Origin: Bacteriovorax sp. | GTDB taxonomy: Bacteria > Bdellovibrionota > Bacteriovoracia > Bacteriovoracales > Bacteriovoracaceae | Assembly: GCA_014377485.1 (NCBI GenBank) | Contig: JACMPM010000020.1 | Location: 1 to 64,000, forward strand | DNA length: 64,000 bases | Direction: 5' to 3' | Shown here: piece after piece, positions 12,757 to 63,157 of the stretch | Layout of the letters: each line of letters starts with the position of its first letter | How positions within the stretch are numbered: position 1 is the stretch's first letter | The notes under the pieces: generated by a model | Told to the model about the DNA's origin: nothing | What the model saw: the letters and a program-made list of their open reading frames with translations, nothing else | Database searches by the model: none | Program-made: the position numbers and the translations under genes

Positions 12757-13749
12757 TTAAATAAGTCCTAATTCTTTTACTGTGTCTCTTTCTGAACGAA
12801 GTTCATTCAAAGTAAGATTGAATTTTTCCATTGAAAAATCATTGAGTTTAATTCCGTCAACAACGCTCAATTTTCCATTAACCACAGTACATGGGAATGA
12901 GAAAATTAATCCTTTATCCACACCGTACTGCCCATCACTGGCCACACACATAGAAAAAGTATTTCCTGCTTTAGTGTCATGTGTAAGTGCAAAAATTCCA
13001 TCTACTACAGCATTAGCAGCTGAAGCAGCAGAAGAAAGACCGCGAGCTTTAATGATCGCCGCTCCTCTTTTTTGAACAGTTTCAATGAATGTTGTTTTTA
13101 ACCATTCATTATCTGTAATCACTTCACTTGCAGACTTACCGTTGATTTTAGCAGTGTAAAAATCTGGGTATTGAGTTGCAGAGTGATTTCCCCAAATGGC
13201 CATATTGGTGATTGCTGTAACATCTACTCCAGCCTTTTGAGCAAGTTGAGTTTTGGCACGATTTTCATCAAGCATAGTCATTGCATAAAATCTATCCGAC
13301 GAAATACCTTTAGCAGCATTCATACAAATAAGCGCATTAGTATTACATGGGTTTCCTACAACAAAAATGCGAACATCACTAGATCCATTGGCAGCAATAG
13401 CTTGTCCCTGAGTTGTGAAAATTCCACCATTGATTTTCAATAAATCTGCTCTTTCCATTCCATCTTTACGAGGAACAGATCCAACCAGAATGGCCCAGTT
13501 AACATCTTTAAATCCAACTGCGTAATCACTTGTACAAACTATTTTTTTAAGAAGAGGAAAAGCACAATCGTCCAATTCCATCGCTACACCTTTAAGAGCA
13601 GGAACGGCAGCTTCAAGTTCAATCAACTGTAGTTCAACTTCAGTTTCAGGTCCAAACATTGCTCCGGAAGCAATTCTAAACAACAAAGCATATCCAATTT
13701 GGCCTGCAGCACCAGTGACAGCAACTTTAACGCGATTTTTTGCACTCAT
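12757..13749 (-). CDS. mdh: NAD-dependent malate dehydrogenase
   Basis: 330 residues from the ATG at 13749 (GGAG upstream). Converts malate to oxaloacetate in the TCA cycle. It has the nucleotide-binding motif [19 protein letters not shown], the substrate-loop Arg region '[14 protein letters not shown]', '[12 protein letters not shown]', and catalytic His in [11 protein letters not shown]. Length and motifs place it with the longer cytosolic-type MDH group (about 327-333 residues) rather than the 312-residue E. coli type. A longer frame upstream (to 13893) has no ribosome site and is not used. The fumarase genes at the far right of the window act one step earlier in the same cycle. Confidence 0.95.
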
Positions 13750-13869
13750 AAATTCTCCAATGGGTAAAAAAATAAACAGAAATTCAACTTGAGGTAATAT
13801 TAGCGAAAAGAATATCCTTGGTAAATAAGCATAAATTGGAATTTTATGAGAGAATTTTAGATGTGCGAA

Positions 13870-13898
13870 TTGACTTAAAAAAGTTATAACCAATAATA
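13870..13898 (+). promoter_or_regulatory. Predicted sigma-70-type promoter
   Basis: TTGACT (13870-13875), 17-base spacer, ATAATA (13893-13898), 58 bases before the ATG of the disordered-protein gene. Confidence 0.4.
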
Positions 13899-13955
13899 GC
13901 TTTTTAAAAGAGCTTCAAGCAGACCATCCAGACGATAAACTAGATAGGAAAATTT

Positions 13956-14714
13956 ATGAGCGAACAACCAGATTCGGGCAATAATAACAATAATAGACCT
14001 CCGGCCAGCAGCGGCCCAAATAATAACAGTCGGCGTAATCAAAATTCACGACGACGCCCTCAAGGTGGCGGTGGTGGACCGAGACCACAACAGCAAGGAC
14101 AAGGGCAGCCTCAGGGACAAAATCCTCAAGGTGGTGGCGGACCAAGGCCACAACAACAAAATCAGAATCAAAACCATCAAGGTCAACCCCAAGGCCAAAA
14201 TGCTCAAGTTGGTGGACAGCGCAGACGCCCAAATAGAAATAATAACAATCGCCCGAGAAATCCCAATCAAGAGCCTAGGCCAAATGCTACTCAAAATAAT
14301 AATGGGCCAATGGGTATTAATATTGAACGCATTTATGAAAAGTATTTAAATCTTCTCGATCAGCACCTAATTGCCAGAAGAAAATACCACGATCTTTTCT
14401 ATAGGGCCGACCATGGTCAAAAAAATAAATTAGAACGCAATTTTTATAATACTTTGAATGATATAAGAGATTTTGAGAGTAAACTCGCTCCAGAAGCGCG
14501 CGTATTATTTGAGAAAAGAAATAATGGATTAAACCCAGATAATATCTATACTACAAATCATGAAATTTCGGTGATTGGAGACAATCCTCCACCTGAAACT
14601 GAGTGGGCAGATCCGCACTTTACTCATTCTCAACAGCAAGCAGATTATGCTGGGGACAAAGAAGAAAGTGCGGGTTCGCTAGATGACTATTTAAAATACA
14701 AAAATCTAATTTAG
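13956..14714 (+). CDS. Intrinsically disordered Gly/Gln/Asn/Arg/Pro-rich protein with a helical C-terminal domain
   Basis: 252 residues. Residues 1-120 are low complexity: runs of N, PQGGGG, RPQQQ, QGQPQGQN and RRRPNRNNNN, very basic and without hydrophobic residues. Residues 121-190 form a compact helical domain (INIERIYEKYLNLLDQHL, then KLERNFYNTLNDIRDFESKL), and the tail is acidic. No signal peptide, so cytoplasmic. The basic low-complexity arm suggests RNA or DNA binding or condensate behaviour, as in RGG/Q-rich proteins, with the helical domain mediating self-association; this is inference. Similar 'basic IDR plus small helical domain' proteins occur in deltaproteobacteria, but I cannot name a family. 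Confidence 0.65.
   Translation: MSEQPDSGNNNNNRPPASSGPNNNSRRNQNSRRRPQGGGGGPRPQQQGQGQPQGQNPQGGGGPRPQQQNQNQNHQGQPQGQNAQVGGQRRRPNRNNNNRPRNPNQEPRPNATQNNNGPMGINIERIYEKYLNLLDQHLIARRKYHDLFYRADHGQKNKLERNFYNTLNDIRDFESKLAPEARVLFEKRNNGLNPDNIYTTNHEISVIGDNPPPETEWADPHFTHSQQQADYAGDKEESAGSLDDYLKYKNLI
14059..14202 (+). repeat. Imperfect tandem duplication in the low-complexity arm
   Basis: Two copies encode PQGGGGGPRPQQQ...QGQPQGQN and PQGGGGPRPQQQ...QGQPQGQN. They differ by a Gly and a short Asn/Gln insertion, suggesting slippage or unequal recombination in the repeat. Confidence 0.65.
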
Positions 14715-14725
14715 GACTAAATAAA

Positions 14726-15040
14726 CTAAACAACTTCTACGTTTTCAAGATCTCTTGTAGGCAATTTTTTAGTAGTCGTTGCTTTGTTAAAATAATTCGT
14801 CAACGTTTCTTCGTGATCTTTTAGGATAGCTGCTTTTAGTTCATCAGGATTGATGTCTAGGACCTCAGAAATTTTCTTCATCATTTTTAAAGGTACATTA
14901 CACAAACCACGTTCAACGTTAGAGATGAACTGCCCGTTTTTGTATCCTAATAGTAGCGATAAATCTGATTGAGAGTAATTTTTTGGGTGTCCAATTCTCT
15001 TTGATCGTACTAAAGTGGCTATATTTTTAAATGATCTCAT
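14726..15040 (-). CDS. XRE-family helix-turn-helix regulator
   Basis: 104 residues. Residues 8-70 form a Cro/CI-type HTH: 'YSQSDLSLLLGYKNGQFISN' holds the two core helices, followed by VERGLCNVPLKMMKKISEVL. The C-terminal 30 residues are polar. GGAGG precedes the ATG with good spacing. It faces away from exonuclease III and converges on the disordered-protein gene. Target unknown. Confidence 0.85.
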   Translation of the reverse strand: MRSFKNIATLVRSKRIGHPKNYSQSDLSLLLGYKNGQFISNVERGLCNVPLKMMKKISEVLDINPDELKAAILKDHEETLTNYFNKATTTKKLPTRDLENVEVV

Positions 15041-17393: not shown

Positions 17394-17933
17394 ATGGCAA
17401 AATTTTCCCTCATCCCTTTTGACCTTTTAAACGCACCCGACATCACGATTGAAACAGAATTCAATCACAATGAAGAATCGGTTTATGTAAGTTATAGGAT
17501 ACGCAGAAACCTACCCTTGCTAGACCTAGGAAATTCTACTCCCAATAAAACTCGCCTTATAAAGTTGTGGGAAAAGACCTGTTTTGAACTTTTTATAAAA
17601 AATAATCATGATCAATATATTGAATTTAATTTCTCCCCCAACTTTGAATGGAATTGTTTTTATTTTAATAAAAAAAGTGATCCTTTAGTTGAATGGGAGC
17701 AAATGCAAATGCCTGTTATTGATATTCTACTGAGCAGTGAGCATTTCTTTCTTTTTGTTGATATTAAAAAAGAATTTTTTCCCAAAGGATTTTTTGGTGT
17801 TGGTTTTGAACTTTGTGCGGGAATAACAAGTGTAATAAAAGAGAAAACAGGATCAATGAGTTATTGGGCCTTATCTCATACAGATACGAGACCCAACTTT
17901 CATCATTTTGATTCGTTTAAATATAAGTTTTGA
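17394..17933 (+). CDS. DOMON-like domain protein
   Basis: 179 residues from the ATG at 17394 (AAGG upstream; a TTG at 17370 is less likely). It has the hallmarks of the bacterial 'DOMON-like' family: RLIKLWEKTCFELFIKN, 'YIEFNFSPNFEWNCFYF', and the closing 'SYWALSHTDTRPNFHHFDSF'. DOMON folds bind haem or sugars, but this cytoplasmic subfamily has no known ligand. Its end overlaps the converging gene by 17 bases. Confidence 0.8.
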   Translation: MAKFSLIPFDLLNAPDITIETEFNHNEESVYVSYRIRRNLPLLDLGNSTPNKTRLIKLWEKTCFELFIKNNHDQYIEFNFSPNFEWNCFYFNKKSDPLVEWEQMQMPVIDILLSSEHFFLFVDIKKEFFPKGFFGVGFELCAGITSVIKEKTGSMSYWALSHTDTRPNFHHFDSFKYKF

Positions 17934-18312
17934 TGGCGATGGTGTATTCTTTCTCAGTTATTTTACTAACTAGACCAGTCACTAACAATTCTTGAAAACA
18001 AGAACTTGTTAATTTTTTCCCCATGTCGTCCATCACTACACTATAAATTTTTTCTTCAGTTTTAAAATCTAGTGAGACAACTTTTCCTTCTTTCGATCTC
18101 TCGCGAGGTTTGATCGTTCCAGATAGTTGAACTAGTTTATCTTTATAGAAATAATAGTTATCGCGATTAAATCCCGATCCCTCAGCTTTACTTTTTTTAC
18201 CTGTAGCTTTGCCTTCACCGTCTTCATCAAAGGCGAATTCATCATCCCCACCCTCAGTATCAAGATCTACTTCTTCATCACCATCTTCAAATTCGTCTTT
18301 GAATCCACCCAT
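17917..18312 (-). CDS. Small cytoplasmic protein with acidic disordered N-terminus
   Basis: 131 residues. Residues 1-35 are dominated by Asp/Glu/Gly (DEFEDGDEEVDLDTEGGDDE), followed by a Lys/Gly patch and then a globular part of about 80 residues that starts 'NRDNYYFYKDKLVQLSGTI' and ends in beta strands (EKIYSVVMDDMGKKLTSS; EYTIAIKTYI). AAGGGG lies upstream of the ATG. Not recognised; the C-terminal pattern looks like a small beta-barrel. Confidence 0.55.
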   Translation of the reverse strand: MGGFKDEFEDGDEEVDLDTEGGDDEFAFDEDGEGKATGKKSKAEGSGFNRDNYYFYKDKLVQLSGTIKPRERSKEGKVVSLDFKTEEKIYSVVMDDMGKKLTSSCFQELLVTGLVSKITEKEYTIAIKTYI

Positions 18313-18761: not shown

Positions 18762-19031
18762 TTAAGCTTTTTTGAAAGTCCCTTTCTTTTCTTTACACTC
18801 TTTTTCAGTTGTTTTTAACCATCCTTTTGCCTTGCATGCATTATTTCCAGCACAGCTGTTTTTCTCACTGTGACAAGCTGATGTACCTTTGCAAGAATTA
18901 ATTCCATGACATTGCCCTTCAATGGTCTTTGCTTCTTTCACAGGAGCTGCTGCAATGGCCGCATCGTTTGCCGTTGCTGTTAGAGCTAATCCAGAAAGTG
19001 CTGCTGCTAGTAATAAGTTTCTTGAATCCAT
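18762..19031 (-). CDS. Cys-rich exported peptide, BufA2-like metallophore precursor
   Basis: 89 residues. Residues 1-22 form a signal peptide (LLLAAALSGLALTATA). The mature region has seven cysteines in a repeating pattern (GQCHGINSCKG, SACHSEKNSCAGNNACKAKG, then KECKEKKGTF). Spacing and the 'C-x-G-x-N-x-C-K-G' theme resemble BufA2-type bufferin precursors, periplasmic copper-chelating RiPPs. BufB/BufC maturation partners (DUF692, DUF2063) are not in the window, so it would be an orphan precursor or an unmodified Cys-rich metal-binding peptide. AGGAGG precedes the ATG. Confidence 0.5.
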   Translation of the reverse strand: MDSRNLLLAAALSGLALTATANDAAIAAAPVKEAKTIEGQCHGINSCKGTSACHSEKNSCAGNNACKAKGWLKTTEKECKEKKGTFKKA

Positions 19032-42429: not shown

Positions 42430-42774
42430 GGTTCTTCCTCAAAAATATTATAGCCCGAAGATCTATTCAGATTATCGGGGCTCAGTCCTATTATCTTGAG
42501 TTATTTCATCGGATAACTGTTTAAAGGTCGTATTCTCAAGGAGTTCGAAGAATATTTTAAAACCGCTTTAAAATCGCTGAAGCCTGTAAAAATGGGCAGA
42601 TGATCTCTATCACTGCCAACTCACAAACGCTCTAAGACTATGAAACCCATAAGCTAGTGATTATAAAATCTAACTAGACCCATCAAGTATTAAAATAAAA
42701 TCAATCAAAGACTTGAAATGCCGATAAATAAAAGGCCTGAAAGAATTAGGACTGCAATTTTAAAAAAGGAAGTA
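42430..42774. other. 345-base regulatory gap with hairpins upstream of the giant lipoprotein
   Basis: Holds no reading frame of note. Features: AGCCCGA...TCGGGGCT near 42453-42483 can form a bulged hairpin; a stem TTTTAAA/TTTAAAA near 42556-42574; GGCAG-A-TGAT-CTCT-ATCA-CTGCC (42595-42617), a hairpin with a single bulged A; and the sigma-28-like promoter at 42701-42727. On the minus strand, TCAA-N16-CCCGATAA near 42473-42500 could serve the small exported gene. A short untranslated RNA cannot be excluded. Confidence 0.5.
42701..42727 (+). promoter_or_regulatory. Sigma-28 (FliA)-like promoter for the giant lipoprotein gene
   Basis: TCAA (42701-42704), 15-base gap, GCCGATAA (42720-42727): the -10 box is a perfect match to the FliA consensus and the spacing matches TAAA-N15-GCCGATAA. 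It ends 47 bases before the chosen ATG. FliA promoters mark motile attack-phase genes in Bdellovibrio. Confidence 0.65.
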
Positions 42775-45700
42775 ATGAGAACTGAAAAAAAATTGAAACC
42801 AATTTTTTTGAAGTCATTATCAAAGTTGATAATGTTGAGCACTCTGGTGTTCATGCAAGCTTGTATGCCCACTCCATCAAACACTAGAAAAGCACTCTTA
42901 AGCAGTTCAAACAGCACCACAAAAACGGAAACGAAACTTCCAACATTTACGGAAGGAAATAATTTTATTCAAAATGGTGGAGTAGTCTACACTTCAGCAG
43001 TAAATTTTGATTTGAGTTTTGCAGACACTCTTCAATTGCGCGGGAAGGATGTCAATAGTTATATTAGAAATAACGGCATTCAAATTATTTCATGTCTTAC
43101 AGGTCGTTTTTCTGGCACCGTTAATCAAGTTAATATTTTAGCAGCAATTCCTCACTCCGTTTATAATTTTACAACGCTGACTCTTGAATACTACTACAGT
43201 ATCGCTCCGTCGGACGATGTAAGTAATAAAAACTTTTGTCAAAAAAGTGGTCTGATCAACAAACTGTTCGCTCTTTATCCACTTTTAACTCCAGTCTATA
43301 AAATGAGTGCGCTCTGTCCAGGTGGTGTTTGTGTTAGCAGTATTTACACCAGTCTGCCTTTGGAAATTTATAGTCAAAGTGGTTCAGCTCTAACTCAAAT
43401 TGGAACGACTCAATTAAGTTATAACATCACAAATAAACCAAATATCACAACACCTGTTGGTCAAACATGTATTGGAAAATCTGACTGTACAGCCATCGGA
43501 TATGACTGTTGCAGTTTAGGTCAATGTGTAAAAGACCTGGCCATCAAGCCTGGAGTTGACCAGATCTCTACAAATTATGTACAGGCCTTACAAGATATTT
43601 TAAATAATCCCAATCATATTTATAATTATCCTCAATATTATTATATTTGTTCAACTCCAGTAACCCAACCAGGAACGACTACTCCTGCAACAAACGCTGC
43701 CAATCAAGCGGCCACTCGTTTGAAAAATCTCACTGACCTTTATAATTGTACAACAAAGATTGAAGGTGAAATGGGAATTTGTACTGTAACTATTCCCAAT
43801 GCACATGCCGGTCTTCCCTATGTTAGTTATAGTGCTGGCGTAGACGATCGAAATTTTTCTAATACATATACAAATCAATCGAGTTCAAGCTACGTACCAA
43901 CTGCCAAAGAAGATCTTATTAGCATTCAAGAAATTTCTTATGGTGAAGTCACTCTTTTTAGTTATGATCAAATTACAAGCGAAGCAGTAGTGAGACCTGA
44001 TCCGTTTATTGTTTCCAGCTATCTAAGAGTTAACGGTCATCATAACGATGACAATGCAACTGGAGCTTCAATTTTAATAACGAATAGACCTTCCAGTGCC
44101 GTATCAAATGATTTAGTCATCAAATACCGCACAGATGCGAGTTGTTTTCAATTAAATTCAAATCTTGGAAAATGTGAAAAGTATTATATTCAAGGTCAGC
44201 AAAAAAGTGGTGATACAGTTATTCTCAATAGAAGAGGACGTGTAACAGATCACTACCCTGCCTCAAATATATTTAAACTTCCCTATTATGCCAGCACAAG
44301 TAAAACGATTGCGGTGGAAGTTGATGGAGTTACTCAACGCCAAGATGTCGACTGGCAATTAAATGCTGCTAGCCCTGCGAGCATTCAATTTTTATCGACT
44401 TCAAGCGGACTTAAAGTTTTTGATACCCAAAAAGTAAAAATTACATTTTTTGTAGATCTTACTATTAATCATGTCATGGATTCTAAGAATGCTGCCTTAT
44501 CAAAAATTAAAGATACTTGTCATTGCGCTGATTTAAATTGTGCCTTATCTCCAGTTAAAAATACGGCCGGAGCCATTACAGATTACGCTTGTGTTTATCC
44601 GGATCCATCTCCTGTCGTTCCTCCAATATCACAAAAAATATTCTTGAGTTCTAAAACGGTTCCAGTTCGCTATTACGATACGACGGGTACTTCTAAAGCA
44701 TCAGTAACTGGAGAAACACTTCCTCAGGAAGGGACAATCTTTTCTTATAGAAAAGATAATCTACTAAATCCAACTAATATGCCAGATATCATTAATCCAA
44801 TTGTTGGTGAAAATACTTATATTGGGTTTAATGAAATTTACGGATCATTGAGTTACGCCAATAACGCTGCAAAACCTGCCAAAGAAGTGGCGGTGACTAA
44901 AGGGAAAACTTATGACCTTTATGTCGATAGTGGAACTTATTCCAACTGTGTTCAGTGTGGAAATGACTATTACTCACAACTTAATAAACTTTTTCCACTC
45001 ACTCAATTTGGCGGCGGAGTTCTACCTCTTCAAGCACGTACAGATCGGGCACAGTTCAATGGAATTCGTGCCGATGATATGAGTTTTGGCCGCGCCTGTT
45101 TTGTTCCAGCAACAATGCTCCCTTTTTCTCATGCAATTGCTTCTGATCCACAAGAGCAACGACTCAATAGAATGCGTGCACAGCATTTTCTCTATGCCAA
45201 TGGTTACCAACACGACTGGTTTGGTTTTGACTACGGTGCTGTCATCGGATCGTTTGACGGTGTGAAATGGTTTGCGATTGGAACAAATAGAAGAATAAAA
45301 GCCGATAGTAATAAACTTTTTATTGCCGTGAATGGCCCATTTGGTGATCTCGCACTTGAGAGCACTTTTACTGTTACTATTAATGATGGCTCTCTAAATC
45401 CTGTTGGATCGAATATGGTTACAACTGATTTTGATTCAGATGGCGCCGAATGCCAAAAATTTCACCAATGCTCTACTGATAATGACTGTGCAACAACATT
45501 GGGTTGGGATTATGCCTGTGCAAACATTAACGAAATTACAACTTCGTGGCCGCGCTTTGATGATAATGCCAAAGAAATTCCAGACGCCCAAAGAGACGAT
45601 AATCGTTTCACTAGTATTTTAGCTAATGCTTCTTCAGGAAAACGCTGCGTATACCGCGGAAGAGGGGCTGCGTGTACTCAGAATTATCTATCGAACGCCA

Positions 45701-47895
45701 TTAACTTGAATTCAACATTCAACCAAACTCAAACTCAAACGTTTCATACATGCAGTGCTAATAATTATTGTCAGACTATCACAACGAATAACACGCTCAA
45801 TTCAAAATTCAATAATCGCATTGCCCGTTATGGGAAAGTTAGAACTGATGCAAGTTCTGACAGCTTTGGATTAGGAGTAAAAGTACCCGGCCGCCCTATG
45901 GAATTTAATGCGATCGAGCCGATGCGTTCTGAAACTGCGAGAAATCTTAATAGCAATAAAATGGCCGGTCTTTGTATTCCTGGGAGAACTCCTGAGTCAG
46001 ATACATTTGTAGGTCAAAACTCGACCACTCCTCCTGCTGAATATATGGGTGATAAAATATTAGGCATTGGAATGAGTTATAGAAAAAATACCCCAACTGC
46101 TGTTTCAACATATCTTTCATCATGCTCCATCATGGATAGCACTAATAATTACTTTTACGCAAAGGGTGATCCAAGCTCAAGCAATGCTGCGAATTCCGAA
46201 TTGAAATCAAGCTCTGGAACTCAAGCAATCTCGACTAATTCTCTAAATATTTTTAAATCTATTTTTGAAAATACAAAAAAAATAAGTTTTAGTATCTTCA
46301 CAAATAATACAACGGTATTAACGTCTCAAGTATTTACAGAAAACCGCTGTATGAGAGCTCCAGGAGCAAGTTGTTTCTCTGACCTGGATTGTGCTCCGTC
46401 AAAAATTATTGCGGACAAAATTAAAATGATTAGTGCCGTCGACACATCAATAGTTGGAGATCTTTTAAACGGCATCCCCGTCCAACTTAATAAATACGAA
46501 GTAAAATTCTGGCAGGAAGATCTGGTATGTTCTCAAACAACGGCCAAAAGCGATCCGACTTATAGCTCTTTCACCAACCGTTGTTGCCGAGAAGTTGGTA
46601 AAACCATCTCAATTGCAAACAGTGATTTAAATACTCCTATTTTAAATACTCAAGTTGCAGGTGTTGATATCGCAATTGACAACAAATACCGCTACTCTCG
46701 AGTGGCTACTGTGTATAAAGATCAAGTATCTGATCCTACCAATTTCCCTTCTCTTCACACCGCAATCAAAGATCAATGTACTGATCTGACAACTGCTGCT
46801 GGATGTGTCGATACATCTGTCTTAACCAATCAATTTAAAACTTTTTCTGCCTATGCAGAAAGAACCAGCTGTTCAGGTGATTGGATAAGAAATTTCGATA
46901 ATGGAAATCATAAATGGGACAGCACTCGCTTCCAAACTTTTAATCCTTCGATGTTTAAATGTATGAACTGGCTTCCTGGAGCTAATAACTGGTCTTGTGC
47001 TGGACTTGAAAAAGATGATCCGTCATGTTCATTAATTCAAACTTCACCTTTTTCCGGAAAAGCCAGAGGTGTTATGAATTACCTGGCAAAATTAGAGTTG
47101 ATGGGGATTCCGCAAATTGCTCTTGAGTCCCAGGATTATTTTAATACGACATCAGAAGGTGATCTCTCTTGTCGATCATTTCCAAGTGATCAAGGGGCCT
47201 GTTACCCTGGAAACCCTGATCCAGCTTGTTTGACTAGAAGTATTGGACCACAAACTAGTAATTCAAACAATTTTGCTTATCCTTCTGAGCTTTTTGCAAC
47301 GGGAAAAAGCCGCGAATATTTCGACAGTACACCTACAATCATGAAACAACTTTTTTCAGGTGCTGATGAATCAAATTTCCAAATAATGAAGAAAATATTT
47401 AAATCTGATGAAGTTGCAAGTTGCCTTCCTGCAGGGACAACCATGGCCGTTGGAGCTGATGTAAATCTTTGTTGTTCTGGATTTATCAATTCCAAAAATA
47501 ATAAATGTCAGCTGCCAGATTTCGTAGACGTGAGTATTTATACCAATCGTTATGTTTCTTCCGAAGCTAAAAAAATAAGCATCAATCTATTTGATCAAAA
47601 TGGTTATATCAAAGATCCTTCATATGTTGCTCAAATTGCTTGTGAAAAAAGTATGTGTGCTTCAGGAGTCTTGGCCTATGGTGTATTAATTTCTAAATTA
47701 AGAACACCGGGACAAGAAAATATCGACCAAAAACATTTTAGATTTATGCAGTCAACTACAGCTTCTGACGATCTCAATGGCCTCCTCACTCTTTACAATA
47801 AAGGCTTAAAACTCAATAACCATGCTTATTGTTTTCCTAGTGGTTCGAGTTCAACTAGTAATGCAGATTTAACAATTATTTCTTGTGGAAATTAA
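42775..47895 (+). CDS. Giant Cys-rich surface lipoprotein
   Basis: 1706 residues from the ATG at 42775, which follows AAGGA; the frame extends 19 codons upstream, but that part contains the promoter. N-terminal signal with Cys30 in FMQAC, a near-lipobox, implying lipid anchoring. The mature protein is beta-rich and has dozens of cysteines in clustered motifs such as CIGKSDCTAIGYDCCSLGQC, 'CSTDNDCATTLGWDYAC', CSADNYC-like spacing and CFSDLDCAPSKI, similar in spirit to small disulfide-knot (Dickkopf/WAP-like) modules. It probably forms a long extracellular fibre or receptor. No family recognised. A sigma-28-like promoter suggests expression in motile cells. Confidence 0.7.
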   Translation: MRTEKKLKPIFLKSLSKLIMLSTLVFMQACMPTPSNTRKALLSSSNSTTKTETKLPTFTEGNNFIQNGGVVYTSAVNFDLSFADTLQLRGKDVNSYIRNNGIQIISCLTGRFSGTVNQVNILAAIPHSVYNFTTLTLEYYYSIAPSDDVSNKNFCQKSGLINKLFALYPLLTPVYKMSALCPGGVCVSSIYTSLPLEIYSQSGSALTQIGTTQLSYNITNKPNITTPVGQTCIGKSDCTAIGYDCCSLGQCVKDLAIKPGVDQISTNYVQALQDILNNPNHIYNYPQYYYICSTPVTQPGTTTPATNAANQAATRLKNLTDLYNCTTKIEGEMGICTVTIPNAHAGLPYVSYSAGVDDRNFSNTYTNQSSSSYVPTAKEDLISIQEISYGEVTLFSYDQITSEAVVRPDPFIVSSYLRVNGHHNDDNATGASILITNRPSSAVSNDLVIKYRTDASCFQLNSNLGKCEKYYIQGQQKSGDTVILNRRGRVTDHYPASNIFKLPYYASTSKTIAVEVDGVTQRQDVDWQLNAASPASIQFLSTSSGLKVFDTQKVKITFFVDLTINHVMDSKNAALSKIKDTCHCADLNCALSPVKNTAGAITDYACVYPDPSPVVPPISQKIFLSSKTVPVRYYDTTGTSKASVTGETLPQEGTIFSYRKDNLLNPTNMPDIINPIVGENTYIGFNEIYGSLSYANNAAKPAKEVAVTKGKTYDLYVDSGTYSNCVQCGNDYYSQLNKLFPLTQFGGGVLPLQARTDRAQFNGIRADDMSFGRACFVPATMLPFSHAIASDPQEQRLNRMRAQHFLYANGYQHDWFGFDYGAVIGSFDGVKWFAIGTNRRIKADSNKLFIAVNGPFGDLALESTFTVTINDGSLNPVGSNMVTTDFDSDGAECQKFHQCSTDNDCATTLGWDYACANINEITTSWPRFDDNAKEIPDAQRDDNRFTSILANASSGKRCVYRGRGAACTQNYLSNAINLNSTFNQTQTQTFHTCSANNYCQTITTNNTLNSKFNNRIARYGKVRTDASSDSFGLGVKVPGRPMEFNAIEPMRSETARNLNSNKMAGLCIPGRTPESDTFVGQNSTTPPAEYMGDKILGIGMSYRKNTPTAVSTYLSSCSIMDSTNNYFYAKGDPSSSNAANSELKSSSGTQAISTNSLNIFKSIFENTKKISFSIFTNNTTVLTSQVFTENRCMRAPGASCFSDLDCAPSKIIADKIKMISAVDTSIVGDLLNGIPVQLNKYEVKFWQEDLVCSQTTAKSDPTYSSFTNRCCREVGKTISIANSDLNTPILNTQVAGVDIAIDNKYRYSRVATVYKDQVSDPTNFPSLHTAIKDQCTDLTTAAGCVDTSVLTNQFKTFSAYAERTSCSGDWIRNFDNGNHKWDSTRFQTFNPSMFKCMNWLPGANNWSCAGLEKDDPSCSLIQTSPFSGKARGVMNYLAKLELMGIPQIALESQDYFNTTSEGDLSCRSFPSDQGACYPGNPDPACLTRSIGPQTSNSNNFAYPSELFATGKSREYFDSTPTIMKQLFSGADESNFQIMKKIFKSDEVASCLPAGTTMAVGADVNLCCSGFINSKNNKCQLPDFVDVSIYTNRYVSSEAKKISINLFDQNGYIKDPSYVAQIACEKSMCASGVLAYGVLISKLRTPGQENIDQKHFRFMQSTTASDDLNGLLTLYNKGLKLNNHAYCFPSGSSSTSNADLTIISCGN

Positions 47896-49012: not shown

Positions 49013-52000
49013 ATGGCCTTTATGAAAAATCTCTCAAAAATTTTAGAATTAGTGACAAAAACTTTAAAAGTTTTGATGATTAACACAATCGTCTTCTCTC
49101 TGATTCAAATTCCATTTGTTTCTGAAACATTCGCCGCTACCTCTAAAAAATCCAACGGTGGTTTTGAGGCTCAAGACATTGTTAATTTGGCCAGTGGTGC
49201 TTTGGGTGTGTATTCAAACTATTTAGGCCAGAAACAACAAATGCTTCAACAGCAAATCACTTCTGCAAATAATCAAAAATTAATTGCACAATTAAGCCCT
49301 ACTTGCCGCAAAGCTGATGGGACTGCCTGTTATACAACTCCAGCTAAATTATTTCCTGAATGTACTCTGCCTGCCTCTATGTCAAACATGCCGGCCAATG
49401 CCTGTAATAATCCAACGCCGGAAGTTAATCAAATTAGCTCTATGATTACTTATGAATCTATCTCTCAAGGATGGATGAATTATTATGATCAAATGAGTAA
49501 CGAAGCTTCGAACTCTAGTTATGCTGTTGGACTCCGTTGTTTGGGTGATAAGCAAAAAGCAATGGACTCTCAATTAACTGAGATGGTTAATAGTCTTCAA
49601 CGTCTTCAGGATCGCTTGAATCAAGACAAACAAATTTTTCGCGATAATAATAAAAAATTATTAGAAGATATGAACACTGCCAACGATGAATTATTAGGTT
49701 CGTCGGGTGGTCTTAGTAAAAACAATCTCAATATAAAAACTCAAGACTTTGCTAAGTATTTTTCTCAAAGCTGTCTGTCTGTTATCGGAAAAGATGCTAT
49801 TAAATCCGGTTCAGCTAACGGCGGTCTCAGTGGAATCTTACAAGGACTAAGCTCTACAAATAAAGCAGCTAGCGATTTTAATTTAAATAAAAATGTTATT
49901 GAAGATGATGTCCGTCGTGAAGCAAGTAAAATTGCAACCTCAATCAATGGCAGTGGAATTGATGACTTCTTAAGTAATAGCAGTACTCAAAGCAATATCA
50001 AGTCGACAAGCTATCCAACTATAGAAACAACTGTTAAGAAACAAGCTGCCGAGCTCAATACAGCGAGAGCGCGAATCAATAAAGAATTATCCGCCCTGGG
50101 ATATACTCCTCCAGCTATGGATAAAAACTTTACAGTGGACATGAATGATTTCATGGCAGGCTCAGCAGATTTTTTCAAGAAAAAATATGTCAACGATTGT
50201 GTGACTGGTGCCTCGAGCGGAATAGCTATTCCTGTCAGTGATATACTAAATTCACTAGAACAAAAAAGTACAAATAGTGAAGGGACTGCAAGAAACGATT
50301 ATCGTGCAGCCCTTAAAAAAATTCTTGATTCTGATGCCATGATGGACGAAAAAATGGTAAGTATCAAGGACCTTCAATCTCAATATCCAGACATCACTAT
50401 TACATATAAAGACAGCACTCAATCAAGAATTACTGAAAGTCCTTACAACCTTTTCATGAAAACGATTGATAAGTGTCAGCAACGCTTCACTCAAGATGAT
50501 CAGTTTTCAAGCAAAGGCTCAAGCGGTGTTTCTTACCAGAAAAAAGTTGAGCGCGGACGAGCAGCACTTCAGGAACTAAAAAATCTTAACGATAGTTTTA
50601 GCTCTAAGATCACTCAGGCAATTACTGATCAAGTTCTAAACTGTAATGGCCAGGCATCAAAAGCCGGAAGTGATTGCAGTGAAGAATCATTAAAATCAAC
50701 TAGCGATAATTTTTGTGTGGCCCATGCCAGCTCTTGTGCTAACGATATTCAGGGTTGTTATGCTGAAGCCAACAATCAAGTTCAAACTAGAAAAACAAAA
50801 ATGGCAAATTTGGCAAAAACATATAATGCCAACGTATCGGCCATGATCACTCGCTCGAACACATTGTATGAACAACAAAAAGCAGCTGTGACAAATATCA
50901 CTCAAATGATTCAATCAAAATTTCCTGGAACTAATTTTGAAATTCCAAAAGATATGTTCGTCGCAATGCCTGAATTATCAAAAGATACTTACGGCGTAGA
51001 AATGGCAGGTAACGGAGACACTAAATCTTTCCTCGAGGGCGAGAATTCAATGCCTGGGAAAATCGACAAACTAAAATTAGTCTTTCAAAAACAAAGAGAC
51101 GCTGTAAAAAAAGCAACTGATGATTATATTGGTCTTCAAAAAACGGCAATGGAAAAAGAAAGAGGTCGTTGGGAGAAATTGGCCGGTGATTGTAAAAGTG
51201 CAATCGACAAGTCTTCAAGTGAACTTGCAAAAGCAAATAACGAAGGACTAAAAAAACAGGGTGAAGAAGACCAAAAAGTTGCTAAATTTTGTAAAAAATA
51301 TAATAGTATCAGCCAAAACCCATTAGGTGCTTGCGGCAAGGCCAAAGATCTATCAGATATCGCAGATCAAGTTTCAGCTCGATTAAGTAATCAATCCCTC
51401 GCACTTTCTGAGCAATACGCTTCAGCATGTGATGGATTGAATAATCAAAACGATGATCTTCCACCTCAGTGTGATGGAGAGCAAAAAGGGGCAACTAAGG
51501 CTTATTGTGATAGTAAGATGAAAGCAGCAAGTAAAAAATCTGGAGCTGATGCAGGTTCTTCTTCTTCAGGCCCTAAGGTTAAAAGGCTAACGTTCACTTC
51601 ACTCTGTGGATCTGGATCATCACTAAAAAGTGATTCTGATTTTATTGCAGCAGCGTCTAAAAAACTTGCTTCAGATGATCAAGCGACAATTAAAGAAATT
51701 TCTTCTTTTGATGGAGTTGTAAAAAAATCAGAAGATATTAATGATTCCAATTTTTTCTCTAACATTTCATCAATGATTTCGTCAGAAACTTCTGGATCAG
51801 TGTGTGAGAAATTAAAATCAGTTGCTAAAGCTGATGAAGACTTAGACCCGGCATCTATTGAAAAATCAAGTGCGGCTAAAGAAAAAGATTTTGTTAGTAC
51901 TCAAAAAAGTGCTGAATTAAAATTGGCCAATAAAGATATATTGCCCGAAGAAAGAGCACGCCAACAGGGGATTTATGATTCTGCTGCAAGTGATATTAAA

Positions 52001-52264
52001 AGATTATCTACTGAAAAAGATAGCAAGCTTGCTTTTGCAGAAAACAACAAAAAACTAAAATCATATTTTAATGACCTGGCATCAGTCACTGCGACTCCTG
52101 ACCCTACTGCGTCCAGTACAAAACTTACTGAAATAAAAAACATCGGCGAACAGATGACTGGTCCGTGCGATATGCAAAGTAATTCTAATATAACTAAAAA
52201 TACGGGCTTCGACTTAAGCGGTTTCGACGCTGGCGTACTCGGCGCTAATTCACGGAGCAAATAG
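49013..52264 (+). CDS. Very large secreted helical protein of unknown function
   Basis: 1083 residues. Long N-terminal signal (hydrophobic core about residues 20-42, VLMINTIVFSLIQIPFVSETFAA). The mature protein is predominantly helical and coiled-coil-like (MLQQQITSANNQKL, MVNSLQRLQDRLNQDKQIFR, VAKFCKKYNSISQNPL) with paired cysteines spread through it (e.g. CRKADGTAC, CSEESLKS, CDGLNNQNDDLPPQC). Ser/Asn/Lys-rich, no domain recognised. Likely an exported structural protein. Start uncertain: ATG at 49013 or 49022, both with weak sites. Probably cotranscribed with the metalloprotease gene 13 bases downstream. Confidence 0.65.
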   Translation: MAFMKNLSKILELVTKTLKVLMINTIVFSLIQIPFVSETFAATSKKSNGGFEAQDIVNLASGALGVYSNYLGQKQQMLQQQITSANNQKLIAQLSPTCRKADGTACYTTPAKLFPECTLPASMSNMPANACNNPTPEVNQISSMITYESISQGWMNYYDQMSNEASNSSYAVGLRCLGDKQKAMDSQLTEMVNSLQRLQDRLNQDKQIFRDNNKKLLEDMNTANDELLGSSGGLSKNNLNIKTQDFAKYFSQSCLSVIGKDAIKSGSANGGLSGILQGLSSTNKAASDFNLNKNVIEDDVRREASKIATSINGSGIDDFLSNSSTQSNIKSTSYPTIETTVKKQAAELNTARARINKELSALGYTPPAMDKNFTVDMNDFMAGSADFFKKKYVNDCVTGASSGIAIPVSDILNSLEQKSTNSEGTARNDYRAALKKILDSDAMMDEKMVSIKDLQSQYPDITITYKDSTQSRITESPYNLFMKTIDKCQQRFTQDDQFSSKGSSGVSYQKKVERGRAALQELKNLNDSFSSKITQAITDQVLNCNGQASKAGSDCSEESLKSTSDNFCVAHASSCANDIQGCYAEANNQVQTRKTKMANLAKTYNANVSAMITRSNTLYEQQKAAVTNITQMIQSKFPGTNFEIPKDMFVAMPELSKDTYGVEMAGNGDTKSFLEGENSMPGKIDKLKLVFQKQRDAVKKATDDYIGLQKTAMEKERGRWEKLAGDCKSAIDKSSSELAKANNEGLKKQGEEDQKVAKFCKKYNSISQNPLGACGKAKDLSDIADQVSARLSNQSLALSEQYASACDGLNNQNDDLPPQCDGEQKGATKAYCDSKMKAASKKSGADAGSSSSGPKVKRLTFTSLCGSGSSLKSDSDFIAAASKKLASDDQATIKEISSFDGVVKKSEDINDSNFFSNISSMISSETSGSVCEKLKSVAKADEDLDPASIEKSSAAKEKDFVSTQKSAELKLANKDILPEERARQQGIYDSAASDIKRLSTEKDSKLAFAENNKKLKSYFNDLASVTATPDPTASSTKLTEIKNIGEQMTGPCDMQSNSNITKNTGFDLSGFDAGVLGANSRSK

Positions 52265-52277
52265 GTAGTGAAATGTT

Positions 52278-54659
52278 ATGAAAAAAGAAGTTAAAACTTC
52301 ATTATTCAATTTAACACTCATAGCACTAGCATCTCTAGTGCTATCGGCGTGTGTGCCTAGTATAGGAAATAATGCTCGTTCAAGAGCAGCAAGTGCGATC
52401 ACAGGAAGTGCTAATGTTGGATTGTATCAGGGACGGGTACTTGCTGATAATCCAATTATACTTTCAAAAAATGCCAATTTATCAGATTCATATGATCTCA
52501 ATAAACTTTTGAGTACCGTTCCGATTACTACAAATTCATTTTTAAAAGGAAATGCCTCTTGCCAAGGCCTGGATTATTGTTTTGAAGTTCGGGCAACTAA
52601 AGTTGATCCTTCTCCCCTGCAAACTGCAACTGGTAAGTGGAGCTACAACGCTAACTCCAGTGAATTTTTACAAGTTAATACTTTTTATCATTTAAATATG
52701 GTTTCAGATTTATTTTTTACAAATCTATCTCATAGTTTTAGCCGCGCTTATCTGGGAAATTCTGCAACAACCTTGTACGACACTTCACTACCAAAAAGTA
52801 TTCAAACAGATACAAATGTTTTTAAACTAATTACACAGCCGTTAATTATCTACGGTGATTGTAATGAACCGGATGCTGCTAATTTTAACAATACAACTCA
52901 ATCCATTTGTTTGGGATATGTAAGCAGTAATCCAACAGTGAAATGGGCACAGGATAATACTGCTATCTATCATGAGACTGGGCACTTTTTCCAAAAACTG
53001 CAACTCAACCTAAGAAACCCATTGATTGGCCCTAGGGTTAATATGGGAACACTTTTTTACGATGAAGCAGGATCAATTGGCGAAGGACTTTCTGATTATT
53101 ATAGTTATTTTGTCAATGGTAGGACCCATTTTGCTGAGTGGGCAGCTGGCAGATTTTCAAATGCATCGAGACCTATGTCGGAAAGAGACCCTGCTCATGT
53201 GGCAGGTATTTCAACTGATCCTGATCAACGTTTAAGTTATCCTCAGTTTCTTGATTACAATCCTTACGAACCAAGCTTTCCCACTGAAGACGTACATTAT
53301 TCGGGAATGATTATTTCACATTACCTAGTCGCACTCACAGAAGATCTTGAGGATAAATGTGTAATGTCCAGAAGAGATGCTTCAGATTTAGTTATTCACT
53401 TAGTAAGTGAGACCCTCGCTGAATATGGTGACTTGTCATCAACAGGAACACAAAGTGTTTCTTCAAGCTTAATTTTAAGAGATAAAATTAATTTAAATTC
53501 ATCACATTCTTCTGATTGGTATAAAATTGTCAACCCAATCACTTACCGATCTTTTATGCAAACATTTGCTAAAAATTTGATGAACAATTTATCAAACACT
53601 ATAGCAAGGCCGGCACTCAATCGTTGCAATAACGGTATTTACACCAGAGACCAAATTGAATCTCTTATAGATCAATACGGATTGCTGCTTTTTAGAACGT
53701 ATAATGAAAATCGAAATCTTTCTACGTCTGCTGGAACACGCGACAATACACCCGTTAATGCTATTAATAGAAAAAAATCAGTTCTTATTTCAAAAAATCT
53801 TTTGATACTTGATCCTACAACAAGTGCTAGCTCTGCTTTTGTAATCGACACAAGATCTGAGATCAAAAAAGCAATAACTTCAGGAAATTTAACTTTATCA
53901 GCTCAAACTCCAAGTGATTTATCATTTAATAACGACAACGGAAGAATGAGCCCCGGCGAAGTTGTCGCTGTGGCATTAAATCTTTATAACAATTCAAATA
54001 CACCAATGGGTGGTGTTCAAATTCTTGCCAACGATTGGAATCATGCTTCTCTTGATCCGGTAACAGGCTACTTAAAACCATGTCAGTTTCCTACTTCAAT
54101 GTCTAACGACCAGTGGCCTCTCATATCAGAAGGCGGAGTACCATGCACCAAAACAGCAGCAACGGCAAGCACTGACTTTGCTCCAGTTTGCTTTATTCAA
54201 TCAAATGAAACAACGTCGACTAAATGGGTTTCACAAAAAGAATTCCAAAATAAAATGGCGTTGGATTCATCTTTCTGTCTAGATCCAACAAAGCCAAACG
54301 AATGTTTTATTAGGGCGATAAAAGGTGCTGATCAAGCCATCTATTCTCGTATCAATTCAAAATCAACTTGGGGAAAAACACTGGCCAATCCAGATACAGG
54401 TAAGGCGCCTATTCTCAGCGGTGCAAATGTTATTTTATTTGAAGTTTCTAAACATGTACCTCCAGGAACACTTGTAGATTGTAGGTTAAGAGTACGCTTC
54501 ACTAACTGTGAAGACTGCTACCACGATGCAAATCCACTTTTAAGAAGTGATCATGTTACTAACCCGATTACAAGGACGGATTACGATTATACCGATACAG
54601 ATTATAACGGACCTCGTCCTTTTAAGATTATTCATTTACAGATTCCAATTATTGATTAA
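52278..54659 (+). CDS. Gluzincin metalloprotease lipoprotein (thermolysin/M36-like)
   Basis: 793 residues. Signal peptide with lipobox LSAC (Cys25). Catalytic zinc site HETGH (His232, Glu233, His236), followed after 33 residues by E269-G-L-S-D273 (GEGLSDYYS), the Glu-x3-Asp third-ligand motif of M4/M36 thermolysin-like enzymes. Later 'DVHYSGMIISHYLVALT' holds a candidate catalytic His. The C-terminal 250 residues are beta-rich with several cysteines. No propeptide (FTP/PepSY) is present between signal and catalytic domain, unusual for this clan; a PepSY-like protein follows immediately. Predicted surface-anchored protease. Confidence 0.75.
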   Translation: MKKEVKTSLFNLTLIALASLVLSACVPSIGNNARSRAASAITGSANVGLYQGRVLADNPIILSKNANLSDSYDLNKLLSTVPITTNSFLKGNASCQGLDYCFEVRATKVDPSPLQTATGKWSYNANSSEFLQVNTFYHLNMVSDLFFTNLSHSFSRAYLGNSATTLYDTSLPKSIQTDTNVFKLITQPLIIYGDCNEPDAANFNNTTQSICLGYVSSNPTVKWAQDNTAIYHETGHFFQKLQLNLRNPLIGPRVNMGTLFYDEAGSIGEGLSDYYSYFVNGRTHFAEWAAGRFSNASRPMSERDPAHVAGISTDPDQRLSYPQFLDYNPYEPSFPTEDVHYSGMIISHYLVALTEDLEDKCVMSRRDASDLVIHLVSETLAEYGDLSSTGTQSVSSSLILRDKINLNSSHSSDWYKIVNPITYRSFMQTFAKNLMNNLSNTIARPALNRCNNGIYTRDQIESLIDQYGLLLFRTYNENRNLSTSAGTRDNTPVNAINRKKSVLISKNLLILDPTTSASSAFVIDTRSEIKKAITSGNLTLSAQTPSDLSFNNDNGRMSPGEVVAVALNLYNNSNTPMGGVQILANDWNHASLDPVTGYLKPCQFPTSMSNDQWPLISEGGVPCTKTAATASTDFAPVCFIQSNETTSTKWVSQKEFQNKMALDSSFCLDPTKPNECFIRAIKGADQAIYSRINSKSTWGKTLANPDTGKAPILSGANVILFEVSKHVPPGTLVDCRLRVRFTNCEDCYHDANPLLRSDHVTNPITRTDYDYTDTDYNGPRPFKIIHLQIPIID

Positions 54660-62104: not shown

Positions 62105-63157
62105 TTAGTATAACCATTTTTTGATTTGATTTTTTTCACTAAGTTCAATTCCCTGGCGGCGATAGGCCCAACACATATAAGAAATTGAAACAAAGAATGA
62201 AGCAGGCAATCTATTAAGAACACCAATTTTACAACCAAGAAGAGTGGTTTTGCCACCGAAACCCATAGGCCCGATTCCTAACTTATTAGAAGTTTCAACT
62301 ATTTCTTTTTCTAGTTCAGCCAGCTCAAATACATCATTCTTGTCATCTAGACGACGAAGTAATTGCTCTTTTGATTCTATATAACCTGCACCTCGGTCTC
62401 CACCGATACAAATTCCAAGCACGCCTGGTCCACAGCCTTTTCCTTGCGCTTTATGAACGGCATCTAAGATAACTTTGCGAACGCCGTTTAAGTCTCGCCC
62501 TGCATCTAATGGTGTGTAGGGCAAAGAGTATTGAGCTCCAACGTTTTCACATCCGCCCCCTTTTAGCATCAGTTTAACTTCAACCGTTTTTTTGCCGTGT
62601 TGGTGATAATGAATTGATGGATGCCCTGGGCCCACGTTCATCCCTGAATTCTCTCCTGTTAAAGAGTCCACCGAATTTTGTCTTAGGTATCCAAGCTCCG
62701 TTGATTTCACAACTGCTTTATGAATAAGAGAAGTGAAATGATTTTGATTAAAACCCACTGGATGACTGATGTAAAAAAGTACTGTTCCTGTGTCCTGGCA
62801 AAGCGGTTGCAATTTCTTTTTTGCAAGTTCAATATTGGCCTTGATTATATTCATTGCGTATTCCGCAGTCGTATTTTTTTCTTCTCTATGAAGAGCTTCC
62901 AAAATAACTTTTTGAACATCGTCAGGAAGTACGGCAGAAGTGATTTTAATTAATTCAATTAAAGAAGCTTCCAGTGTTTTTTGGGTATTTTCAGTTTTGA
63001 CAATCTTTTTTACGATTTTTTTGGTTGTTATTTTTTTCTTAGCAACCTTTTTTATTGTTTTTTTAGCCGCTATTATTTTTTTGGGCGGAGATTTTTTTGC
63101 TGCTGTTTTTACTGGTTTTTTAACAAGTTTTTTTGCTATTTTCTTTTTTATTGCCAC
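62105..63157 (-). CDS. Fumarate hydratase class I, alpha subunit with Lys-rich N-terminal tail
   Basis: 350 residues from a GTG start with GGAG seven bases upstream. Residues 60-350 are a normal alpha subunit with the three [4Fe-4S] cysteines in PLCQDTGT, GGGCENVG and GKGCGPGVLGICIGGDRG, plus 'SVDSLTGENSGMNVGPGHPS'. Residues 1-55 are a Lys/Ala/Ile tail with PKK, AKK and TKK repeats (VKKPVKTAAKKSPPKKI), like histone H1 tails. The first internal Met is at about residue 101, past the domain start, so the tail is probably translated. Function of the tail unknown: nucleic-acid binding or a membrane/phosphate contact are possible. Confidence 0.88.
   Translation of the reverse strand: MAIKKKIAKKLVKKPVKTAAKKSPPKKIIAAKKTIKKVAKKKITTKKIVKKIVKTENTQKTLEASLIELIKITSAVLPDDVQKVILEALHREEKNTTAEYAMNIIKANIELAKKKLQPLCQDTGTVLFYISHPVGFNQNHFTSLIHKAVVKSTELGYLRQNSVDSLTGENSGMNVGPGHPSIHYHQHGKKTVEVKLMLKGGGCENVGAQYSLPYTPLDAGRDLNGVRKVILDAVHKAQGKGCGPGVLGICIGGDRGAGYIESKEQLLRRLDDKNDVFELAELEKEIVETSNKLGIGPMGFGGKTTLLGCKIGVLNRLPASFFVSISYMCWAYRRQGIELSEKNQIKKWLY

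Follow-up and report, generated by a model that had tools for sequence, protein, structure and literature searches.

The gene at positions 13956–14714 of the window (the whole 64,000-nucleotide stretch analysed here, from Bacteriovorax sp. contig JACMPM010000020.1) encodes a member of an undescribed core protein family of a single bacterial class, which we take to be Bacteriovoracia; the architecture itself is familiar. The best-conserved stretch of the family is a 16-residue acidic peptide at the C-terminus, not the N-terminal arm, and this peptide is absent from the original prediction, which was made from the letters of the window and described a low-complexity basic arm joined to a small helical domain. 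None of the titles listed by literature searches deals with this protein family, which has no name to search by.

The open reading frame originally predicted is borne out in its coordinates, its ATG start and the AGGA sequence six bases upstream, as is the low-complexity basic arm, and the small helical domain is supported by structure prediction (Table 1). The gene is real and under purifying selection. Comparison with the orthologue L002, whose C-terminal part (C-part) is 90% identical to that of the window protein, gives dN 0.058 and dS 0.781 for the C-part, and dN 0.124 and dS 0.774 for the aligned arm in this one species pair; of the other five relatives compared, three (L003, L005 and L006) show saturation at silent sites. 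Beyond the arm, residues 119–190 of the window protein carry a net charge of +3 and residues 191–252 one of -9.

Table 1. Coordinates of the gene, its segments and its neighbours in the window.
Feature	Coordinates	Strand	Description and basis
Malate dehydrogenase (Ldh_1_N, Ldh_1_C)	12757..13893	-	Divergent neighbour; Pfam and conserved synteny
Shine-Dalgarno-like AGGA	13946..13949	+	6 bases 5' of ATG; read from the sequence
Whole gene	13956..14714	+	252 aa and stop; purifying selection, orthologues
Predicted disordered, polybasic N-terminal arm	13956..14309	+	Residues 1-118, net charge +12; composition and structure prediction
Repeat unit 1	14058..14123	+	Residues 35-56; self-alignment of the arm
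Repeat unit 2	14124..14201	+	Residues 57-82; self-alignment of the arm
Predicted helical hairpin	14322..14483	+	Residues 123-176 (C-part positions 5-58); structure prediction and alignment
Conserved segment D-x-x-Y-[ST]-x-N-H	14538..14561	+	Residues 195-202; C-part D77 and Y80 nearly invariant
Segment DPH...Q	14610..14633	+	Residues 219-226; C-part Q108 invariant (66/66), exact DPH in 41/66
Acidic tail peptide	14655..14702	+	Residues 234-249; consensus D-x-E-E-S-x-G-x3-D-Y-x2-Y-K; alignment of 66 members
Helix-turn-helix (HTH_3) protein	14726..15040	-	Convergent neighbour; Pfam and conserved synteny

A search with the C-part finds the gene in 120 of 129 genomes of the class, including 72 of the 73 of good quality, and in 88 of 95 genomes of the family (61 of the 62 of good quality); the two sets overlap, and every genome in the class set falls in one family. 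Nearly all genomes have a single match, and the second matches in three of them (G028, G038 and G077) resemble gene fragments or chance hits. A profile of 66 members, these being the distinct proteins among 79 loci, matches 95 of 290 genomes of the phylum, of which 94 belong to this family and the other (G248; E 0.005, within an 818-aa frame) is taken as a chance match. The profile finds no credible relative in the ~193 of these 290 genomes that belong to other families, a division that rests on listing order, with 175 of the non-matching genomes unnamed and three genomes of the family listed without a match. A peptide scan of genome contigs returns nine loci, all in Bacteriovorax or Bacteriovoracaceae records; being built solely on peptides from the window protein, it can detect no more than close relatives. 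Searching plasmid records with the window C-part (tblastn) yields no relative, and none of three pattern matches in viral contigs is a relative. Within these searches of phylum genomes, plasmid records and viral contigs, the family appears to be restricted to the class.

The best-conserved part of the protein lies at its C-terminus. Information per column across the 66 members is 3.24 bits in the tail core, 2.34 bits in the hairpin and 1.29 bits in the linker, and the C-part residues invariant in all 66 are R23, Q108, D116, G122, D126 and Y127. Net charge over the last 60 residues is negative in 60 of the 63 complete members and neutral in three divergent ones (L045, L046 and L047). All 66 members contain the tolerant pattern D-x-[EDQ]-[EQDV]-[STVE]-x-G-x3-D-Y, which was composed after these sequences had been viewed; the exact strings EESxG and Gx3DYx3K occur in 55 and 61 members respectively, and DYxxYK[GN] lies near the C-terminus of 38. 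Across 59 genomes a DNA pattern for EE[S/T-like]xGx3DY matches 57 times, and 49 of these matches fall at this gene and eight elsewhere; the chance controls give six matches (reversed), 11 (mis-spaced, one base too short) and three (reversed and mis-spaced), and the tail motif is thus in no excess over chance in other genes of these 59 genomes.

Between the arm and the linker lies the predicted helical hairpin. The AlphaFold2 model from eight full-length sequences has helices at residues 123–147 and 153–176 with block-mean pLDDT values of 80–93. It also predicts short helices in the tail, though weakly, and its pLDDT averages 53.8 overall. When the C-part is modelled by itself from ten sequences, a similar hairpin is obtained (C-part positions 5–32 and 35–57; mean pLDDT 66.2), and both predictions rest on shallow alignments. 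In addition to the invariant R23, the hairpin contains Y12 and K25, which are nearly invariant among the 66 members.

The arm has a highly biased composition (N 22%, Q 20%, G 16%, P 15% and R 13% over residues 1–118), with an entropy of 2.91 bits as compared with 4.04 bits in the remainder of the protein. Its best 60-residue segment is 95% N/Q/G/P/R, the highest of 266 sampled ORFs of the same genome, among which the runner-up reaches 53%; the sample was drawn from 281,727 bases (the window and 20 stretches, ~7% of the genome) and consists of ORFs of 70 aa or more after greedy removal of overlapping ones. In the AlphaFold2 model nearly all of residues 1–119 have pLDDT below 50 and no secondary structure.

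Arms of the 63 complete members (L003, L009 and L027, truncated at contig ends, are excluded from these counts) are 29–160 residues long. The start was taken as the first ATG, GTG or TTG, and some arms (e.g. L057, L042, L019 and L007) may therefore be too long, the longest including doubtful upstream starts; variation in length, whose absence would have counted against the original prediction, is nonetheless seen between species. Net charge is positive in all 63 arms (+6 to +35, median +15), and 55 of them contain at least three R/K residues in a row, an architecture that would suit nucleic-acid binding and is kept throughout the family. The R fraction of the arm increases with the GC content of the locus (rho 0.42) and the K fraction decreases (rho -0.40), with no significant trend in net charge density (rho -0.21, p 0.10), as is expected if charge is what is preserved.

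The recent tandem duplication proposed for the arm stands in part. At the protein level the unit PQGGGG(G)PRPQQQ...QGQPQGQN is present twice, and in the second copy five residues are inserted and one G is missing. Self-alignment of the arm scores 89. Shuffled arms average 70.4 (sd 8.8), and 20 of 500 composition-preserving shuffles equal the arm's score, such that the repeat is only moderately significant judged on composition alone; Tandem Repeats Finder reports no array within the gene, even at a score of 30. That the copying was recent is disfavoured, because five of the ten codons in the shared GGGGPRPQQQ stretch differ silently (a count by eye in a small sample), and this silent divergence between units is at least as great as that from the sister species (pS 0.49). 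The presence of approximately three units in the 131-residue arm of L002 supports turnover of repeat units. Within the alignment, Q/G/P repeats are seen in the genus of the window, and the feature common to most arms is N plus R/K.

Comparisons with Pfam, NCBIfam and PHROGs reveal nothing above chance for the window protein or the 66 members, with neither an enzyme family nor a known RNA- or DNA-binding domain among the Pfam and NCBIfam models. The matches of the window protein to TFIIA (Pfam, E 0.58) and to the RNA helicase RhlE2 (NCBIfam, E 1.5) both fall on the arm and are judged compositional. Matches of single members (in Pfam, the best E is 0.0047, with DUF677 in 6 of 66 members, among the best 25 of 53 families; in NCBIfam, the best E is 0.013) are judged to be chance, and PHROGs gives E 0.05 to a family annotated without a function. 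The top PDB sequence match, the mitoribosomal protein mS41 (E 0.11 over 59 positions), is a weak alignment and not significant. Foldseek comparison of the C-part model with the PDB gives 205 matches at E≤10, with none at E≤0.001 among the best 50 of the 205; a helical hairpin resembles many helical proteins by chance.

Three known systems invite comparison. In the DUF4167 (PF13763) proteins of Alphaproteobacteria an R/N-rich N-terminal stretch precedes a short helical segment that begins with an E-K-Y-L-like sequence, and the window protein is alike in having such a stretch, a helical segment and an E-K-Y-L-like start. Membership, suggested by the E-K-Y-L start after an R/N-rich arm, is rejected: the window protein has no match at E≤1, none of 126 class genomes has one above the Pfam cut-off (25 bits), and the weak matches in 26 of the 126 (E≤1) include none at this gene. 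Among 14 controls, the model scores above its cut-off in Caulobacter. Bacterial SSB combines a nucleic-acid-binding part, a variable linker and a conserved acidic C-terminal docking peptide. The present family likewise has a variable linker and a conserved acidic C-terminal peptide, with a nucleic-acid-binding part that is putative here; it differs from SSB in lacking a family match, in the sequence of its tail and in the order of its parts. For the disordered region of Bacteroides thetaiotaomicron Rho, RNA-dependent complex coacervation is reported to be driven by motifs of positive charge and regulated by a short conserved motif of negative charge (PMC13269538). The likeness lies in a basic segment coupled to a conserved acidic motif and is one of how the protein may work, with no homology claimed; composition and charge, and disorder as predicted by low pLDDT, do give the family a disordered segment with conserved positive charge. 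The Rho region forms part of an RNA helicase, and the portion of it that drives coacervation is KE-rich, whereas the window protein has an N/R-rich arm on a small protein without a recognised catalytic domain.

The gene lies between two neighbours on the opposite strand and is therefore probably a lone transcription unit, in an old synteny. Malate dehydrogenase, whose listed ORF probably extends upstream of the true start, is divergent and within 300 bases in 54 of the 63 loci (of 66) with at least 800 bases of upstream sequence, the nine exceptions being L026, L045, L046, L047, L052, L054, L056, L057 and L074. The HTH_3 protein, apparently itself a conserved regulator of the lineage, is convergent within 1.1 kb in 51 of the 61 loci with at least 1090 bases downstream, and within 160 bases in 39 of the 61. 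These neighbours do not reveal the function of the gene. Rfam returns just one chance-level match between 12500 and 16000 (mir-361, scoring 22.9 bits where the cut-off is 70), and neither promoter-like sites (four found; mean of 5.1 in shuffles) nor terminator-like sites (one found; mean of 0.9) are in excess.

Elsewhere in the window several genes merit mention. A small protein whose N-terminus is strongly acidic and of low complexity is encoded at 17917–18312 (- strand; no significant Pfam match, best E 0.023), and a similar protein is found downstream of the present gene in 6 of 46 loci compared. The short Cys-rich product of 18762–19031 (-) has a signal-like start and no Pfam match at E≤0.001, and presumably resembles small metal-binding periplasmic proteins. 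Three close-set large ORFs on the + strand (42718–47895, 49013–52264 and 52278–54659; 1725, 1083 and 793 aa) are also without a Pfam match at E≤0.001. The fumarate hydratase (PF05681) encoded at 62105–63157 (-) has a Lys/Ala-rich, histone-H1-like N-terminal arm of ~60 residues, an odd feature for a central metabolic enzyme; a Lys-rich arm is present in 11 of 11 matches in the genus, the window included, and is shorter in L135 and L140.

The reading that we tentatively favour, with confidence a little short of even, is that the protein is a cytoplasmic, non-enzymatic, lineage-specific adaptor whose arm would bind nucleic acid, probably RNA, and whose tail would dock a partner and/or restrain the arm. 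The arm would act electrostatically and with little sequence specificity, most likely on RNA; the hairpin might provide a surface for self-association or docking; and the acidic tail may dock a specific conserved partner and/or compete with nucleic acid for the arm, a form of autoinhibition. Complex coacervation driven by RNA might follow from this, though not necessarily. In favour are the basic arms (63/63) and acidic tails (60/63) despite arm lengths of 29–160 residues, the concentration of conservation in the tail core, the steadiness of charge density against GC, the purifying selection and the lack of an enzyme match. Against it are the lack of a known nucleic-acid-binding domain in Pfam and NCBIfam, and neighbours (malate dehydrogenase, the helix-turn-helix protein and an endonuclease/exonuclease-family protein) that are neither co-directional and adjacent nor RNA-pointing. 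The net-neutral tails of L045, L046 and L047 on the 60-residue measure, exact tail strings that are less universal than the tolerant pattern, and a hairpin predicted from shallow alignments also count against it, and the target of a basic arm could instead be DNA, anionic lipid or an acidic protein.

A rival reading is a chromosome-associated (nucleoid) protein, with the polybasic arm binding DNA and the acidic tail bringing in a partner from replication, segregation or transcription. Its charge architecture is compatible with such a role, as is one copy in 72 of 73 good-quality class genomes, which is what a housekeeping chromosome function would lead one to expect. We nevertheless consider it unlikely, as H1-like bacterial proteins have Lys/Ala/Pro repeats and the arms here are rich in N and R/K; an H1-like arm does exist in this genome, on the fumarase, and looks different, and Pfam gives no DNA-binding domain. 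It is similarly improbable that the arm is mostly tolerated filler made by slippage, with function wholly in the hairpin and tail as a protein–protein adaptor. The more than fivefold spread in arm length and the better conservation of the C-part are what this would produce, but positive charge in every arm and R/K runs of at least three in 55 of 63 are unexpected for neutral filler, and in the one species pair compared dN of the aligned arm is well below dS.

Still less probable, and in our view very unlikely, is that the arm is a Q/N-rich prion-like domain capable of self-assembly into condensates or amyloid, the helical part being its cargo. N+Q does account for 42% of the window arm and a median of 28% over the 63 arms, but it falls to 9% in some, and a prion-like domain is by definition a Q/N-rich segment poor in both proline and charge; the window arm is 15% P and 13% R, which disfavours amyloid. 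It also contains no F, W or Y (the median aromatic content of the 63 arms is 2%), and condensation through aromatic stickers is therefore unlikely. Complex coacervation of the arm driven by RNA would be possible. The RNA-binding or condensate-forming role suggested in the original prediction is plausible.

An extension of the adaptor reading, which we put forward as speculative and judge to be rather unlikely, is that the protein is a lineage-defining RNA–protein organiser, so far seen only in this class, in which the arm would gather RNA and the tail recruit a universal machine. Candidates for this machine would include the ribosome, RNA polymerase and enzymes of RNA decay, and the tail when unbound would switch the arm off, a proposal that we view with equal doubt. 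Were it true, the class would have a lineage-specific manner of organising its RNA handling. A protein present once in almost every class genome examined, without an above-chance family model or, in these searches, a detected outside relative, marks a conserved, nameless process, and its charge layout, a fast-changing basic arm with a strongly conserved acidic tail, is directly testable. The 63 arms, varied in length and composition and constant in positive charge, form a natural series on what evolution preserves in disordered regions.
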